From Chryseobacterium sp. KACC 21268 (GTDB taxonomy: Bacteria > Bacteroidota > Bacteroidia > Flavobacteriales > Weeksellaceae), in contig CP117875.1 in assembly GCA_028736075.1 (NCBI GenBank), positions 2,914,001 through 2,978,000 of the forward strand: a DNA stretch of 64,000 nucleotides, in the 5' to 3' direction. The notes below the pieces were generated by a model. It made no database searches. It saw only the letters and a list, made by a program, of their open reading frames with translations, and was not told the DNA's origin. Made by a program: the position numbers and the translations under genes. Positions 28,973 through 36,768 of the stretch are shown in pieces (the first letter of the stretch is position 1; every line of letters begins with the position of its first letter).

Positions 28973-31303
28973 TTATTTTCTTACAACTTTTTTGGAGATA
29001 GATTTTCCGTTGTTCAAAGTTGCATTCAAGATGTAAACGCCTCTTGGTAAATTGGAAAGATCTACTTTTTTGGAAGATGACCTCAATACACTTCTTCCAT
29101 TGAAATCAAAGACGTTAATGTCCTTTACATTTTCATTCAACACTGTCACATAATCAGATGTTGGATTTGGATAGATGACCAAATCAGAGTTTGATAAAAT
29201 ATTGATATCAACAGATAAAGTCTGCAAGTTGATCTTATATTGAATCAATCCCAAGTCAGATGTGCTGATATAAACATCAACTTTTTCGTCTGGCGTAAAA
29301 TCAATAGATGCAGATTCTGAAAACAGATAATTCAGATCTTCAGGTGAAATCTCGGTCCAAGCCTGACCAAAATCTTTGGAATAAACAATTCTCACTTGGG
29401 ATGGCGGATACGCATATCCATCACCTGTTCCATCCATAAAATTGGAAGTTGCGACGATGACACCGTTTTTATAAGGTGAAAATTCTGCATTGTTGATGAC
29501 ATTCCCATTGTAGACGTGATTCCACTTTATCCCTGCATCATCAGAGAGGAAAATTCCTTTTGTGGTCGAAAGCAGTAATTGATTTTTATTAAATGGATTA
29601 CTTTTGATATCATAAATATAATCATTGCCGGATTCCAAAACTCCCAAACCGCTTTCCGAAGCTGTCCAGGTTTGTCCGCCATCTGTCGTTTTGTAAACGT
29701 TATTATCCTGAGAAAGCAGAACATTATTCTCATTATTTTCATCGACGATGATTCCAAAGACAACACCGAAAGAAGGAAGAATTACTTCTTCGCTGGTAAT
29801 GGCACTCATATCAGTGAAATCAAATTTTCTGACAGACTCACTGAAAGACACCCAAGCATGATCTGTATTCTGTTTAGAAGTCGCTATTTTCATGATATTA
29901 AGTCCAAAACCACTGTAACCTGTGGAATAATCTACACCGTGATTATTGCTCACAGCAAAGCTTGATCCCATAAAGCCACTTGTACTGATGTACACTCTTC
30001 CGGCAACTAATGGATCCGCAAAAAGCCCGTTATTGTTGAAATTTGGGAAGAAGTTAATTGGATGATGACCAATTGCAGTCTCTTCTCCAGATTGAAAATT
30101 TTTATGCATAAATCCTCTTCTCAGACCATAGTACAAATGCTTCTCCGTGCCTTTATGAAAACTGACTCTGCCTGTATTATTGGCAAATGGATTTTTGAAT
30201 CTTGTCATTGTAATACCACCGTCCAAAGAATGGAACGGATAGAAGTTGGAACTGATAATCACTTCACTATTATTTGAAGGATTGAAAGTTGCATTCAGTC
30301 CGTAATAGTATGTGTTTTCGAGATCATCATTGGGATGAACGTAATTCGTCCAGCTGTTTCCGCCATCTTTAGAAATGACGATCTCATTCTCTTCCAAGAT
30401 CAAGATCTCGTCATTGTTTTTTTGATTGATGACTATTTTCTGGATGCTGTTAGTGGAAAGGTCTGTCCAACTAATCGGGACAACGTTCCAAGTACTTCCA
30501 CCATCATTGGATCTGTAAAGATTTTGCCTTTGATCTTCTGACAGATAAAAACTTCCTAAAAACATTTTTTGAGGATCCGCTGGATCGAATGCTAGCGCTG
30601 AAAAATTAGTTCCGGCAAGTTTTTCTGTCCACGAACTTCCTGCATCTTCAGAAACGAATAATCCACCGTACTTCGTATCCGGCGAAAAACCTCTTGACAG
30701 AAAAATCTTTTTTGGATCTGATGGATGTATCGCCACGTTATTCACGTGAATCCCGTCATTGTCAAAACTCGAATATACTTTCTGCCAATTACCTCCTCCA
30801 TTTTCGGTGTAGAAAATATCTGTTGTCAAACCAAAATTAAACATAAATGTCGTGTGCAAAAGAATATTTTCCTGATCAGAACCGGTAACTGAATAAGAAA
30901 CAATCAGATTACCAGGCATTGATCCGTTCGGAGAATTGATATTTTTTACAACAGAGCCATTTGAAGGATCAATAATGATAATTTGATTATAAACCGAACC
31001 TTCCGCCTGAACAATGAAACTGAGATACTTTTGATCCTGAGTCCATTTCAGATCTTTGATGGTTCCAAAAATTTGGTCTATTGGGAATGAGTAGAGAACT
31101 TCCCAGTTTTGTCCATTGTCAGAACTTTTAACAACGTGATTGGTCACCGTATGCGCATATAAAACATTTGGTTTGACAGGATCGTAAGTCACATCGAAGA
31201 CCTGTCCGTAATTCGGCGAAGTCAATAATGTCATCTGAGCCAAAACTCTGTTCGAGAAACTGAAACAGATCACCATTAAAAAAAGAGTAAGAATTTTCTT
31301 CAT
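28973..31303 (-). CDS. Secreted BNR/sortilin-like beta-propeller protein with T9SS type A sorting domain
   Basis: The ATG at 31303 opens a normal signal peptide (MKKILTLFLMVICFSF...VLAQ); an in-frame ATG at 31348 only adds a hydrophobic stretch before it. The 776-residue protein carries many BNR/Asp-box-like repeats of the kind SxDxGxxWxxV (SSDNGQNWEVL, SEDAGSSWTEKL, SNDGGSTWNVV, TTDGGQTWTAS, SDDAGIKWNHV), which form a VPS10/sortilin- or sialidase-type propeller. The last 75 residues are a type A sorting domain (NPTSDYVTV...NLPRGVYILNATLNNGKSISKKVVRK), used for T9SS export and attachment to the cell surface. No sialidase catalytic set is seen, so an adhesive or binding role is more likely. 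A tandem GTGACA site lies 61 nt upstream. Confidence 0.85.
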   Translation of the reverse strand: MKKILTLFLMVICFSFSNRVLAQMTLLTSPNYGQVFDVTYDPVKPNVLYAHTVTNHVVKSSDNGQNWEVLYSFPIDQIFGTIKDLKWTQDQKYLSFIVQAEGSVYNQIIIIDPSNGSVVKNINSPNGSMPGNLIVSYSVTGSDQENILLHTTFMFNFGLTTDIFYTENGGGNWQKVYSSFDNDGIHVNNVAIHPSDPKKIFLSRGFSPDTKYGGLFVSEDAGSSWTEKLAGTNFSALAFDPADPQKMFLGSFYLSEDQRQNLYRSNDGGSTWNVVPISWTDLSTNSIQKIVINQKNNDEILILEENEIVISKDGGNSWTNYVHPNDDLENTYYYGLNATFNPSNNSEVIISSNFYPFHSLDGGITMTRFKNPFANNTGRVSFHKGTEKHLYYGLRRGFMHKNFQSGEETAIGHHPINFFPNFNNNGLFADPLVAGRVYISTSGFMGSSFAVSNNHGVDYSTGYSGFGLNIMKIATSKQNTDHAWVSFSESVRKFDFTDMSAITSEEVILPSFGVVFGIIVDENNENNVLLSQDNNVYKTTDGGQTWTASESGLGVLESGNDYIYDIKSNPFNKNQLLLSTTKGIFLSDDAGIKWNHVYNGNVINNAEFSPYKNGVIVATSNFMDGTGDGYAYPPSQVRIVYSKDFGQAWTEISPEDLNYLFSESASIDFTPDEKVDVYISTSDLGLIQYKINLQTLSVDINILSNSDLVIYPNPTSDYVTVLNENVKDINVFDFNGRSVLRSSSKKVDLSNLPRGVYILNATLNNGKSISKKVVRK

Positions 31304-31364
31304 AATCAAAAATTTATTTAATGTAAAATTGATGAAAAAGAGAAACAATCCTACAAATTATGGC

Positions 31365-31380
31365 GTGACATATTGTGACA
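31365..31380 (-). promoter_or_regulatory. Tandem GTGACA direct repeat upstream of BNR gene
   Basis: GTGACA occurs at 31365-31370 and 31375-31380, one helical turn apart. It lies 61 nt before the start codon of the BNR gene. The same pair with the same spacing and nearly the same distance is upstream of the FG-GAP gene (34713-34728). Confidence 0.6.
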
Positions 31381-31411
31381 ACATTGATTTTTATTCGTGA
31401 CCAACAATAAT

Positions 31412-33040
31412 CTAAATCGCTGATATATAATCGAATAAATTAATTCCATCAGTCAAATTCAGTTTTTTGGAAATTCTTTCCTTTCTTTTCCTGCAGGATT
31501 CTGGACTTATGTTTAGGATGGACGCAATTTCTTTGTGACTTAAATTCATATAAAGATAACAGATGAATCTGATCTCGGAAGAACTCAGATCTGGATGTCT
31601 TTCTTTCAAAGTTGTAATGAAATTTTGATTCACGCCTTCGAAATGTTTGAAAAAACTATCCCATTGATTATTGTTCTTCAACTGAATTTTCAAATCCTTG
31701 ATCGATTTTACCAGATGGGAATTATTCGAAATTTCCGGTTGATTGATGATGGCCTCAATGATCTCCTCCACCACATCATTTCTGCTGGAAATCGTCAAAG
31801 CCTGTGATGTCAATTGTCGGTTTTGATGTTCTATTTCGTTTTTGAGACGCTCTTTTTCGAGCAAAGACAAAGTCTCCTGTTCTTTTAACTGCTGGGTCAG
31901 AATCAGATTGTCGCTTTGCTTTTTCTCAAATTCGAGTTGCGTGATTGTTTTCTGTTGTTTGTATTTGATCGAATTGTTGTAAAGAAAAAGAAGCACCAAC
32001 AAAATGATGATAATGGCAGAAGCAATGATGACATAGAAAATTTTTCTTTCATCTTTCAAACGCTGTTGGCTTTCTTTCAGTTCAAATTGGTAATTCTGCA
32101 TTTCGAACTTGATCTTCCCATTGTTGAACAAAGCAGAATTGTTAATTTTAGAAATCGAATCATTGACCACGATCACAGAATCCTTATACTTCAGAGACTC
32201 ATCATAATTCTTGGTTTCTGCATTGATCTTAGAAAGATAATTGTAGATTTCTTCCCTATTATTAATATTTGGCGAGAGTTTTCGCGCTTCCAGTGCCATA
32301 GATTTGGCTTGCGCATAATCACCTTTTTTCTCGCTGATCTGAGCCTTGATCAATAGAATAAAAACCAGATTTTCAGTTTGATTTTCAACTTCTAGTTTAG
32401 GAATGAGATAATCAATGATGGCTTCGGAATCTTTAAATTTTTTCTTCAGATAGAGATTTTCCGCAAGAGCCATTTTGTTCATAATGTTGACTTTTGGATC
32501 ATCTTTAGTCAAAGTTTCCGCCTCCTGAATATATTTATAAGCTTCATTGGTTTTGTTCAATTTGTTCAAAACCAGACCAAGGTTTACAGCATAAGCCCCA
32601 GCTTTTTCGTTTCGTTTGTTTTCTTTTGCGGTTTGGTAGGCTTTTAGAAAATATTCGTAGGCTTTCTGATTATTTTTCTCTTCAAAGTAGAGAATCGCAA
32701 TGTTGTTTACGACCGTCATCACGTGCTTTTTATCTGGCATATTGGTCGCGATGTCATAAGCTTCTAAATAAAATTTCAGAGCTTCACCAAAGTCCGTCAT
32801 CAGATAATAATTCAGACCGATATTATTGGTTGCACGAAAATTAGCTTTATTCCATTTCTTATGTTCCGAAACTGTTTTCACACGGATCAGCATTTCCAGG
32901 GACTTCGTATGTTGCTTTTTAAACATTTTTTGAATGGCAGAATCTATGATGACCTCACATTCTTTCTCTGATTGTCCAAATATTTTCGAAGGCAGAACAA
33001 AAAGTATGATTAGGGGTATTATTCTCAGTAATAATTTCAT
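31412..33040 (-). CDS. TPR-TM-LuxR-type regulator
   Basis: The 542-residue protein has a signal-peptide-like N-terminus (residues 1-22). It is followed by about seven TPR units between residues 30 and 300 (for instance NNIAILYFEEKNNQKAYEYFLKAYQTAKE). One membrane helix lies at about 335-353 (IFYVIIASAIIIILLVLLFLY), then comes a coiled coil of about 70 residues. The C-terminal LuxR-like helix-turn-helix (DLSSSEIRFICYLYMNLSHKEIASILNISPESCRKRKERISKKLNL) completes it. Such proteins sense through periplasmic TPRs and bind DNA from the cytoplasmic side. It lies between two T9SS-secreted genes that share a tandem repeat motif, so it is the obvious candidate regulator. Confidence 0.85.
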   Translation of the reverse strand: MKLLLRIIPLIILFVLPSKIFGQSEKECEVIIDSAIQKMFKKQHTKSLEMLIRVKTVSEHKKWNKANFRATNNIGLNYYLMTDFGEALKFYLEAYDIATNMPDKKHVMTVVNNIAILYFEEKNNQKAYEYFLKAYQTAKENKRNEKAGAYAVNLGLVLNKLNKTNEAYKYIQEAETLTKDDPKVNIMNKMALAENLYLKKKFKDSEAIIDYLIPKLEVENQTENLVFILLIKAQISEKKGDYAQAKSMALEARKLSPNINNREEIYNYLSKINAETKNYDESLKYKDSVIVVNDSISKINNSALFNNGKIKFEMQNYQFELKESQQRLKDERKIFYVIIASAIIIILLVLLFLYNNSIKYKQQKTITQLEFEKKQSDNLILTQQLKEQETLSLLEKERLKNEIEHQNRQLTSQALTISSRNDVVEEIIEAIINQPEISNNSHLVKSIKDLKIQLKNNNQWDSFFKHFEGVNQNFITTLKERHPDLSSSEIRFICYLYMNLSHKEIASILNISPESCRKRKERISKKLNLTDGINLFDYISAI

Positions 33041-33127
33041 CTTGCATCAAAATCGTTTAACGAAATATAGATATAATTAATTTTAAAAGCAAAAGATGAC
33101 AATATGAATATATATTTTTAAAATTAA

Positions 33128-33158
33128 AATCGGTCTTAAAATTAATTCAAGACCGATT
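33128..33158 (-). terminator. Terminator of the FG-GAP gene
   Basis: AATCGGTCTT (33128-33137) is complementary to AAGACCGATT (33149-33158). On the minus strand a T-rich run follows, directly after the stop at 33165. Confidence 0.8.
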
Positions 33159-33164
33159 CATAAA

Positions 33165-34652
33165 TTATTGTTTGATCAATTTCTGGAGTTTGGATTTTCC
33201 GTTGACGAATTTAATATTCAGAAGATAAATTCCTTTAGTTAGCTGAGAAACATTAATATTTGAATTTTTTGTTTCTGAAATTTTCTTTCCGGATAGATCT
33301 AGGATTTCAACAGATGAAATTTCTTTTTTACTGCTTATGTTGAGAAGATCTTTAATAGGATTTGGAAATATTTTTACCTCATTAATAGACAGACTATTTT
33401 CGTTTGTTGCCAAGTTTGCGTGATTAAAGATATAGGCAGAACCAGCATCCTGTATTTCATTCTCTTCGTTGCTGTCCAAGTCATCTCTGGACGCGCCGAC
33501 AATAATCTCATTTTCATTCATCGCAATGCTCCAACCATAAGAATCTTGGACCACATCATTTTGTGGCGTCAGTTCCTGATCAAACTCCCAGTTATTTTGA
33601 ACATTCTTTTTATAAACAAAAGTTTTTCCCGGTTCGGCACCGTACAAATGCGGACTGGCTATCAAAAGCTTGTCATTTTTCATTTCACACATCCATCCAA
33701 AATAAGTATGTTCTGAAGATTGATAACTTGCAATTTTTTGAGATTCTTCCCAATAACCAGTTTCATTAAGCTTAAAAATATAAGCCATTGATGGATTCCC
33801 AGTATTGCTCTCTGTGTAGGCGCCAACAACCAATTCCTGATCATAGATGCTGATTGAGTTTCCGAAATAAGAATTTTCAAAATCATCTGACGATGCCAGA
33901 CTTTGATGAAAGATCCACTGTCCGGAATCGTTTTTTTTATAAATGTAAATTTTGCCCGCGCTGTTATTTTCGCCACTTGCTCCAACTGCAAGATAACCGT
34001 CATAAAAACTGACACCGATTCCGAAATTCCCAAAATCAACGCCTGCAGGAGATTCTATCCTTTGTATTTCCGACCAATTATCATTATTTTTTTCAAAGAT
34101 ATAGACTACACCTTTCCAAGAATCTACGCCAGGTGCACCAGCAACAATCGTATTTCCAGACACAGCGAGAGAAGTTGGATTAACGGCCAACAAAGCATCG
34201 TTGCTAAAATCTGAGGCCAGCAATTTTTTCTTGAAGATCCATTGATTATTGGAATTTGGTTCATAGATATACAATCCCCCTGCCCTTGCAACACCTTCAA
34301 TATCAGCCCTTCCTGCTGAAACCACCATAAAATCACTTCCTAATTTTATACTTCCTCCAAACTCAGCCATTTCAAAACCATCAGGTGCATTGATTTTTTG
34401 ATGAAATCCCCAGCTCTCTCCGTTTTTCTGATAAATGTAAACCGCACCTTTCGCAACCTCTTCTCTCGAAGCACCAACGGCGAAATATTGATTGTTGATT
34501 GCAACAGCGGTTCCAAACTCAGCTCGGCTTTCTCTCGTTGAAGCCGTCAATTTTGCCGATTGCTGAAATTGTCCGAAAATAAGTGAAAAACAAAATAGTT
34601 GTCCTAATAAGGTTGATTTTGCAAACATTTTCAAAAATAGATACTTTTTCAT
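33165..34652 (-). CDS. Secreted FG-GAP-repeat protein with T9SS type A sorting domain
   Basis: The 495-residue protein has a signal peptide ending SLIFGQ (about residue 28). At least seven FG-GAP-like repeats follow, of the type FGTAVAINNQYFAVGASREEVAKGAVYIYQK, which build an integrin-alpha-like propeller on the cell surface. The last 70 residues are a T9SS sorting domain with IFPNPIKDLLNIS and LTKGIYLLNIKFVNGKSKLQKLIKQ. It is a surface or extracellular protein, probably adhesive. It has its own terminator and the same tandem GTGACA site as the BNR gene, 60 nt upstream. Confidence 0.85.
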   Translation of the reverse strand: MKKYLFLKMFAKSTLLGQLFCFSLIFGQFQQSAKLTASTRESRAEFGTAVAINNQYFAVGASREEVAKGAVYIYQKNGESWGFHQKINAPDGFEMAEFGGSIKLGSDFMVVSAGRADIEGVARAGGLYIYEPNSNNQWIFKKKLLASDFSNDALLAVNPTSLAVSGNTIVAGAPGVDSWKGVVYIFEKNNDNWSEIQRIESPAGVDFGNFGIGVSFYDGYLAVGASGENNSAGKIYIYKKNDSGQWIFHQSLASSDDFENSYFGNSISIYDQELVVGAYTESNTGNPSMAYIFKLNETGYWEESQKIASYQSSEHTYFGWMCEMKNDKLLIASPHLYGAEPGKTFVYKKNVQNNWEFDQELTPQNDVVQDSYGWSIAMNENEIIVGASRDDLDSNEENEIQDAGSAYIFNHANLATNENSLSINEVKIFPNPIKDLLNISSKKEISSVEILDLSGKKISETKNSNINVSQLTKGIYLLNIKFVNGKSKLQKLIKQ

Positions 34653-34712
34653 ATATAAATTTTTTATTGGGTGAATTTATATAATGATAAGTTAAACGAC
34701 ATTGTACAAGGC

Positions 34713-34728
34713 GTGACATTGCGTGACA
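34713..34728 (-). promoter_or_regulatory. Tandem GTGACA direct repeat upstream of FG-GAP gene
   Basis: GCGTGACATTGCGTGACATT contains GTGACA at 34713-34718 and 34723-34728, again 10 nt apart. It lies 60 nt before the FG-GAP start, compared with 61 nt at the BNR gene. Confidence 0.6.
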
Positions 34729-34730
34729 TT

Positions 34731-35287
34731 AGAACTTATTTCAAGAAAAAACACGGATTTCAATCTCTAAAATGCTTTAGTCTTAAAAAATGAACACTAC
34801 AATTCAATTCTTGATGACCTTCTGGTTTCGCCTCCCTAAAATTCATAGAATTTACAAGGGAACAATTTTCCAAAAATGAAAAAACGGAGGAATACTTAAT
34901 TGAAATTCCTAAAAAATAAGTAGGATAAGTTGATATTGAGATCCAAGAAAAAAATGACGATGGCCACTTCACGACGGCAGAATACCAATTGGAAGATGAT
35001 ATCAATAACATTACAGTCAAAATGAAACAACCTGTTGATATCAGGGTGAATTTTTAGGAATTGAGGGATGAGCCGTCCTAATGGAAACTGATCTAAAATA
35101 TTAAACTACCTAACCACTTGGCAGAGGTAGTTTTATAACTAGATGCAAAGGGCGAACTATTGTAATCTTGACCAAGGCGCAACTAGATGAAAGGCCAGAT
35201 CAATACACCCTGTCCAAAGCATAATCCGGATTGTCCACTTGCTGTATTCCGGCTATGTAAATATCTCAGCAGAGTTGGTTGTTTTGA
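34731..35287. other. Degraded coding DNA, no intact gene
   Basis: The plus strand contains a short readable block, VDIEIQEKNDDGHFTTAEYQLEDDINNITVKMKQPVDIRVNF then a stop (about 34931-35056), preceded by EEYLIEIPKK and two stops. This looks like the worn end of a gene, but I do not recognise it. The 35060-35287 part is stop-rich in every frame. Confidence 0.4.
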
Positions 35288-35675
35288 TTGATCATGGAGA
35301 TAAGAATATATTTTCCAAAGATGGAAACAGAGATTTTATCCTACATAACCAGTAAGACAGGACAAGCAAGTCCCGGAAGTATTATACTGAATGCCACAAC
35401 GCCAACCTCTGTAAAAGTAGAATATTACAACGGCACCAGCTGGGTTGACCTTAGTGTACAGGGTACAGATGTCTTGTCTTTTCTAGGTACAACCTGCTGC
35501 AAGAGAAATACATAATGCAAGAGCAGTCATCGGAAGCGATACTACAAATGCCAATGGCATTTTGGTTCTGGAATCATCTTCCAAAGCAATGGTTCTACCA
35601 ATAGTCTCCTCACATTTGAACATCACAAATCTAGCACCAGGAATGATGGCCTTAATCAATAATGGAGGCAATAAA
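35288..35675 (+). pseudogene. Frameshifted fragment of a Chryseobacterium-type surface protein
   Basis: Two overlapping frames together read as one protein. The first gives SIILNATTPTSVKVEYYNGTSWVDLSVQGTDVLSF; after a shift near 35,480 the second gives VQPAAREIHNARAVIGSDTTNANGILVLESSSKAMVLPIVSSHLNITNLAPGMMALINNGG. The second block (VLESxxKAMVLP..., APGMM) is typical of flavobacterial surface proteins with a Thr/Ser-rich ending. The frame break and the missing ends mark it as a pseudogene. It runs without a stop into the integrase-like sequence. Confidence 0.6.
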
Positions 35676-36062
35676 ACAGAACTGGCTAAGAGATTAATTT
35701 CGAAATATGAGGATACAATTTATTACCCTATCCCCAGAATATCCTCACAAAAATTAAATGAAGCGATTCAAAAGTGTTGTGAAGAAATTGGTCTTACCGA
35801 GGAAGTTCAGTTAACACGTTATTGCGGCTCAAAAAGATTTGACGAAACATTTAGAAAATGTGATATAATTACAAGTCACACTGGAAGGAAAACTTTTATC
35901 ACTAGTAGCTTGTTCTTAGATATTCCCGAGCGGATTGTTAAAGCACAGACCAACTCCAAGGACGAGAAAAGTTTTAGGAGGTATGTCAAAATCTCAGAGC
36001 AACATCATAAGCGGGAGCTTTATAAATGGAATGTATTAGCGGTAGATGACAATAAAAATTAA
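35676..36062 (+). pseudogene. C-terminal fragment of a phage-type (tyrosine) integrase
   Basis: Within the ORF at 35562-36062, residues from about 40 on read as an integrase tail: KLISKY...YPIPRISSQKLNEAIQKCCEEIGL, then ITSHTGRKTFITSSLFLDIP with the H-x-x-R pair, and SFRRYVKISEQH with the active-site tyrosine region. The N-terminal half with the first Arg and the DNA-binding domain is missing, replaced by surface-protein sequence. It is a dead recombinase joined to another gene by a deletion or recombination event. Confidence 0.75.
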
Positions 36063-36768
36063 AACATTTTCAAAATATTAAAATGGACACTATAAAACAA
36101 ATGGAAAAATGATATCACAAATATTCTAGATAGATATTTTCAACCTTTTCCATAATGGCCACAGTCAGACAAACCAAGTAAATAAAAGTCATCATTAAAC
36201 TATTCTATGTCTTAATGTGAATTTTGAATCTAATAAAGATAGGAAAATGGATAAATTCATCAAAGACGGTTTACAGTCAAAGTCTGAAAAAGAACTGCAA
36301 ATTGAGGTATCAAATGAAGATATCCTATCCCCCTACTATTTCCCACTACCTGAAGATCAAATGCGTCAACGGGAAGTTGCAGCCACCTTCTGAAACGTTT
36401 TTAGAAAGAATTTTTCTAAAAAATAATATTAGTAGAAATTACATAAAGTCTATACTAAAAATGTGTACCTGTAATTGACCCCAAAGGTGCAATTCTCGAA
36501 CACTTTTGTAGAGGATTTAGATAAATTAGCCAACCTTCTCAGTCTCTAAAACTATTATTTCCTAAAATGTTTTTAAAAATCAGTTATTGTTTTCATTTGC
36601 TTTAATTCTCTCAAAATGGTGGAGCTTAAATTATTTAGAGTTTTAAATAAGGACCGATAAATTCTAACCTTAAGCTTCGAGGATCACCAACCAAAAATTA
36701 AAAAAGCTGTTCCACAATTCTGATAGAAAATGAAACAGCAATTAAGAAAATAATAATGTGATTTGATT
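36063..36768. other. Stretch without a convincing gene; one small unassigned ORF
   Basis: Only short ORFs occur. One at 36247-36393 (plus strand, 48 codons) has clean codon use and a compact sequence, MDKFIKDGLQSKSEKELQ... ending LSPYYFPLPEDQMRQREVAATF. It could be the start of a decayed gene or a small orphan. I recognise no family, and no start signal sets it apart. The remainder is AT-rich and stop-rich. Confidence 0.35.
36706..36739 (-). terminator. Terminator of the GH5 gene
   Basis: On the minus strand GCTGTTTC pairs with GGAACAGC (8 bp with one G-T pair) and is followed by TTTTTTAATTTTT. It lies 30 nt past the GH5 stop. Confidence 0.65.

Follow-up and report, generated by a model that had tools for sequence, protein, structure and literature searches.

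A membrane-bound TPR-HTH protein is the candidate regulator of two T9SS cargo genes preceded by tandem TGTCAC half-sites in Chryseobacterium

Two genes for T9SS cargo proteins flank a gene for a putative membrane-bound regulator and are preceded by the same tandem repeat. Does this arrangement represent a small regulon, and which factor would act on it, in which direction? To our knowledge, the switching-on of individual T9SS cargo genes is poorly understood. The window, i.e., the whole stretch of 64,000 nucleotides that was analyzed, derives from Chryseobacterium sp. KACC 21268, and the three genes lie on its minus strand, namely, (i) target 1, a BNR/sortilin-like protein of 776 amino acids with a T9SS type A sorting domain (28973..31303; Pfam Sortilin-Vps10, 2e-31; Por_Secre_tail, 1.1e-13), (ii) a TPR-TM-HTH protein of 542 amino acids (31412..33040), assigned from Pfam, hydropathy, and an AlphaFold model, and (iii) target 2, an FG-GAP repeat protein of 495 amino acids, also with a T9SS type A sorting domain (33165..34652; FG-GAP_2, 6.8e-48; Por_Secre_tail, 1.5e-14). 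Both targets score above the cut-off for the sorting domain (TIGR04183/PF18962), as do the paralogous BNR proteins and the targets in other genera described below. The reading that we prefer, at a probability of roughly 0.8, is that the TPR-TM-HTH protein is a membrane-anchored one-component regulator that would bind in-phase tandem half-sites and most likely activate the BNR/sortilin and FG-GAP genes and little else.

The repeat reads TGTCAC-N4-TGTCAC on the minus strand (GTGACA-N4-GTGACA on the plus strand) and occurs in the window at 31365-31380 and 34713-34728, 61 nt from the ATG of the BNR/sortilin gene (31303) and 60 nt from that of the FG-GAP gene (34652), respectively. The putative operator of target 1 is TGTCACAATATGTCACGCC (31362..31380, minus strand), with two half-sites 10 bp apart, and is proposed from its uniqueness in the genome and its conservation; that of target 2 is TGTCACGCAATGTCACGCC (34710..34728, minus strand), proposed from its uniqueness and from a TGTCAC pair that is invariant in 8 of 8 loci. 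GCGTGACAT is common to both. A search of the whole 4.07-Mb genome retrieved two matches to the tandem, both at this locus and at most 3.4 kb apart, whereas about 0.3 are predicted from base composition; the reversed pattern, used as a control, gave no match in the same genome. A longer form, TGTCACNNNATGTCACGCC, with up to 2 mismatches identified the same two genome positions and no others. For the lone hexamer, the window has 19 copies versus 20.8 expected, i.e., no enrichment. Beyond the genus, the sample of 174 family genomes contained 8 tandem matches altogether. A third match in genome G058 lies within a coding sequence and was taken as chance; the extra matches in G001 (an additional exact copy elsewhere), in G011, and in most other family genomes also lie within genes and were treated likewise.

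The tandem coordinates, the two distances, the shared core, and the absence of the site from the regulator's own leader had all been reported in the first-pass annotation, and we confirmed each of them. It had taken the sites as the mark of a small surface-protein regulon, which the genome-wide search supports, since the exact site is found only before the two T9SS genes and is not spread over unrelated promoters. Its picture of a site pair holds but was incomplete in two respects. The genome contains two further paralogues of the module, and a putative third half-site, GGTCAC (31397..31402, minus strand), had been missed; it precedes the BNR pair by 22 bp and is proposed from its conservation and from a 22+10 spacing that recurs elsewhere.

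Operator identity amounts to 91 to 93% across 9 BNR and 8 FG-GAP orthologous loci (93% for the FG-GAP operator), and the identity of the upstream flanks is 67% at the BNR loci and 45% at the FG-GAP loci; TGTCACnnnATGTCACGCC is nearly fixed while the flanks have diverged. The third half-site is kept as GTCAC or GTCACG in 9 of 9 BNR loci. At the FG-GAP loci, the corresponding position contains only a weak TTCAC or no half-site.

The domain order of the TPR-TM-HTH protein fits a membrane-bound one-component regulator, with a topology predicted from hydropathy only. A hydrophobic segment (residues ~1 to 23) is followed by the TPR region (~65 to 276; TPR_12, 4.9e-16), a TM segment (~334 to 356), a long helix, and the HTH (485 to 532); hydropathy maxima are at residues 1 to 23 and 330 to 360. 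The HTH resembles the LuxR/NarL-FixJ (GerE) type with 3.1e-4 and 20.8 bits, which is below the Pfam gathering cut-off of 23.5, and it also matches Sigma70_r4_2 weakly. Among 24 regulator homologues, GerE was matched at E<0.01 in 10 and Sigma70_r4_2 in 12, and the motif RKRKER was unchanged throughout. HTH-like helices are present at 487 to 526 of the AlphaFold model, which has a mean pLDDT of 61 and low confidence outside the TPR; structure searches returned matches to the TPR only and nothing informative for the HTH. Assignment as an ECF sigma factor was rejected, as TIGR02937 reached 18.8 bits against a cut-off of 42.9 and covered the region-4 part only, and the repeat geometry is also unfit. 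A single recognition-helix residue that would set the operator type was considered as well, and this link failed across families.

We propose that the TPR domain resides in the periplasm, that a single helix passes through the inner membrane, and that the C-terminal HTH faces the cytoplasm, where it most likely binds GTCAC-led tandem half-sites. Direct binding of the operator by the HTH domain is what the sequences suggest. Half-site spacings of 10 and 22 bp correspond to one and about two helical turns and would place the half-sites on roughly one face of the DNA, an arrangement that suits cooperative binding by tandem HTH units. Each regulator would control one to three T9SS surface proteins.

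Comparison with known systems reveals partial likenesses. (i) LuxR sites are usually inverted repeats, whereas those described here are direct repeats in a 10/22-bp phase. (ii) Regulators of the ToxR/CadC and VtrA types carry a winged-helix domain at the N terminus and use other sensors; as these families are commonly described, our protein differs from them in that its HTH is C-terminal and LuxR/sigma-r4-like and its sensor is a TPR domain. These regulators unite a periplasmic sensor, one TM segment, and a DNA-binding domain on the cytoplasmic side in a single chain (compare PMC9214523). By analogy, our protein would resemble the ToxR type in its one-component mode of action while standing outside the ToxR family. 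(iii) In FimS-FimR of Porphyromonas gingivalis, an inner-membrane protein with a periplasmic TPR sensor controls surface-structure genes (PMC11053733). The best NCBIfam match of the TPR part of our regulator is HK_Porph_FimS (2e-13); this match covers the TPR region only, and its 49.5 bits fall short of the cut-off (600), which leaves our regulator outside the FimS family. In addition, FimS is a histidine kinase that acts with a separate response regulator, FimR, whereas here the HTH is fused directly and the Pfam search of the regulator found neither a kinase nor a receiver domain. (iv) The nearest full-length model is the BT3442 family (NF053779), matched weakly over residues 75 to 538 of 542 (2.5e-11), and the 43 bits obtained against a cut-off of 940 place the regulator outside this family. 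BT_3442 appears as a multi-domain TPR protein from a cluster of exported proteins in the part of the source cited here (PMC2954219), which mentions no operator or regulon. In the open-licence literature, we found no description of this regulator-operator-cargo unit and nothing direct on TPR-LuxR proteins in connection with T9SS.

The direction of control was assessed from the position of the operators, which would be placed ahead of a core promoter presumed to be weak. A conserved AT-rich block, CATCAATTTTACA (31322..31334, minus strand), follows the BNR operator at a downstream distance of about 27 bp; it is invariant in 9 loci and is presumed to be the promoter -7 region; it fits the Bacteroidetes -7 consensus, TAnnTTTG, poorly. 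By binding the tandem as a blocking operator, the regulator may repress both cargo genes until a signal releases it; site position alone leaves the sign of control unfixed. We consider repression unlikely, if credible; activation is likelier because the operator ends ~27 bp upstream of this presumed, poor-consensus -7 block, a placement that we take to be more usual for activators. With the TPR-TM-HTH protein as the candidate regulator, the small regulon is probably real and its control probably one of activation.

Alternatively, another protein may bind the sites, for example an unlinked response regulator or an ECF sigma factor, and the TPR-HTH gene would be merely adjacent and co-inherited. 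The weak match of the HTH to Sigma70_r4_2 would agree with this, and the TPR-HTH protein is itself a putative binder of the sites; the following observations nevertheless make this alternative improbable. (i) The sites track the regulator. Among 23 congeneric genomes, the tandem site and a regulator orthologue (85 to 100% identity) were both present in 10 of 10, and the site was present in 0 of the 13 genomes without the regulator (Fisher p 9e-7, a value that overstates the association since related genomes are not independent). Two sites separated by ~3.4 kb are present in nine of the 10 site-bearing congeners, and G016, which lacks an FG-GAP match, has a single site. In the family sample of 197 genomes, FG-GAP orthologues were found in 12, each of them one of the 13 genomes with this regulator clade (Fisher p 3e-18, which overstates the association given the kinship of the genomes). 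(ii) The site stays with the FG-GAP gene where the latter is unlinked from its cognate regulator. This is seen in G030, G058, and G074, three genomes from a second genus, where the FG-GAP gene is 36 to 68 kb from the cognate regulator and adjoins a paralogous module with operators of a 20- to 22-bp type, but it carries TGTCACAAAATGTC, the site type of the cognate regulator. Genome-wide, TGTCACNNAATGTC is confined in G030 to the cognate BNR gene and the FG-GAP gene; G074 has one more intergenic site, 120 bp before the gene for a T9SS-sorted adhesin-like protein of 1445 amino acids. (iii) Direct repeats in a 10/22-bp phase do not form a sigma -35/-10 pair. (iv) Paralogous regulators accompany different operators.

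The last point is based on an inventory of the regulator family. The same genome contains two further regulator-BNR units, whose regulators are 43% and 39% and whose BNR proteins are 33% and 32% identical to those of the window. We inspected 27 regulator homologues outside the window orthologue group, together with their flanks. An intact BNR cargo gene lies downstream on the same strand in 22 of them, mostly 100 to 130 bp away, and the others are followed by a split BNR gene (2), another T9SS cargo (2), or a PorP/SprF gene (1); in G153, a different T9SS cargo sits between the regulator and BNR. GTC-led repeats are present between homologue and cargo in nearly all cases inspected. The paralogue operators consist of GTC-led elements, TGTCACnnTnTTTC ... 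GTCnnnnTnTTTC, with a period of 20 to 22 bp. This pattern was found at 21 places in the 197 genomes, 19 of which are such modules; because it was derived from these same loci, its specificity is informative and the number of matches is not. The other two places are in G104 (where it lies on a separate contig, the assembly being fragmented) and in G071 (which looks like chance). Regulators with the 10-bp operator type form one clade of the tree within the family (100/100 support), and this type recurs separately in another family. At two loci of another family (L194 and L195), homologues precede T9SS cargo of 291 and 292 amino acids without BNR repeats, and the operator, TGTCAC-22-TGTCAC-10-TGTCACGC, has the same 22+10 layout as the BNR operator; one half-site of L195 is TGTCGC. 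These data suggest that each regulator clade goes with an operator layout of its own and that the unit of regulator, operator, and cargo has been duplicated.

It is highly improbable that the matching promoters reflect a recent duplication and shared ancestry in place of a selected operator: GCGTGACAT and similar distances are common to both sites, but the repeat domains of the targets differ and only the sorting tail is shared, the FG-GAP flanks are 45% identical between species against 93% for the operator, and, in another family, unrelated cargo lies behind the same operator. The reading in which the TPR-TM-HTH protein itself acts on the sites has its limits in the two occurrences of the 10-bp type on the tree, in the weak or absent third half-site at FG-GAP, and in a siteless locus. 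At the latter (L193:4814-7445, G384), a PorP/SprF gene (PF11751, 6.2e-73) takes the place of cargo behind the regulator homologue, and no operator is visible before that gene.

A more speculative and rather doubtful extension is that the periplasmic TPR domain binds the T9SS cargo that the regulator controls, or the sorting tail of this cargo, so that export status would feed back on cargo transcription. Regulator and BNR cargo distances correlate (r 0.976, 23 pairs), which fits co-evolution, and linked genes that were duplicated together would give the same result. If true, this protein would be a type IX system regulator that is cargo specific and coupled to secretion. With the membrane-anchored activator that we favor, regulator, operator, and cargo form a unit that can be tested, for which a binding code is predicted and which exists in up to three re-tuned copies per genome. 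Natural swaps, namely, the unlinked target and the unrelated cargo behind the same operator, allow the evolution of operator specificity to be studied.

Several minor observations concern individual loci. G030 contains a third regulator-BNR module (L100:8826-12800), in which a GTCCGATTA-like operator is repeated at 21 and 15 bp and differs from both main types. Module genes are split or have internal stops at L063 (G004), L065 (G013), L108 (G020), L110 (G008), L115 (G005), and L162/L163 (G009), which suggests recurrent loss or sequencing errors. In the window, the segment at 34760-36480, beside the FG-GAP gene, contains no clear intact gene; a plus-strand ORF within it (35562-36062) resembles the C-terminal part of a tyrosine recombinase, and the segment may be the remnant of a mobile element.
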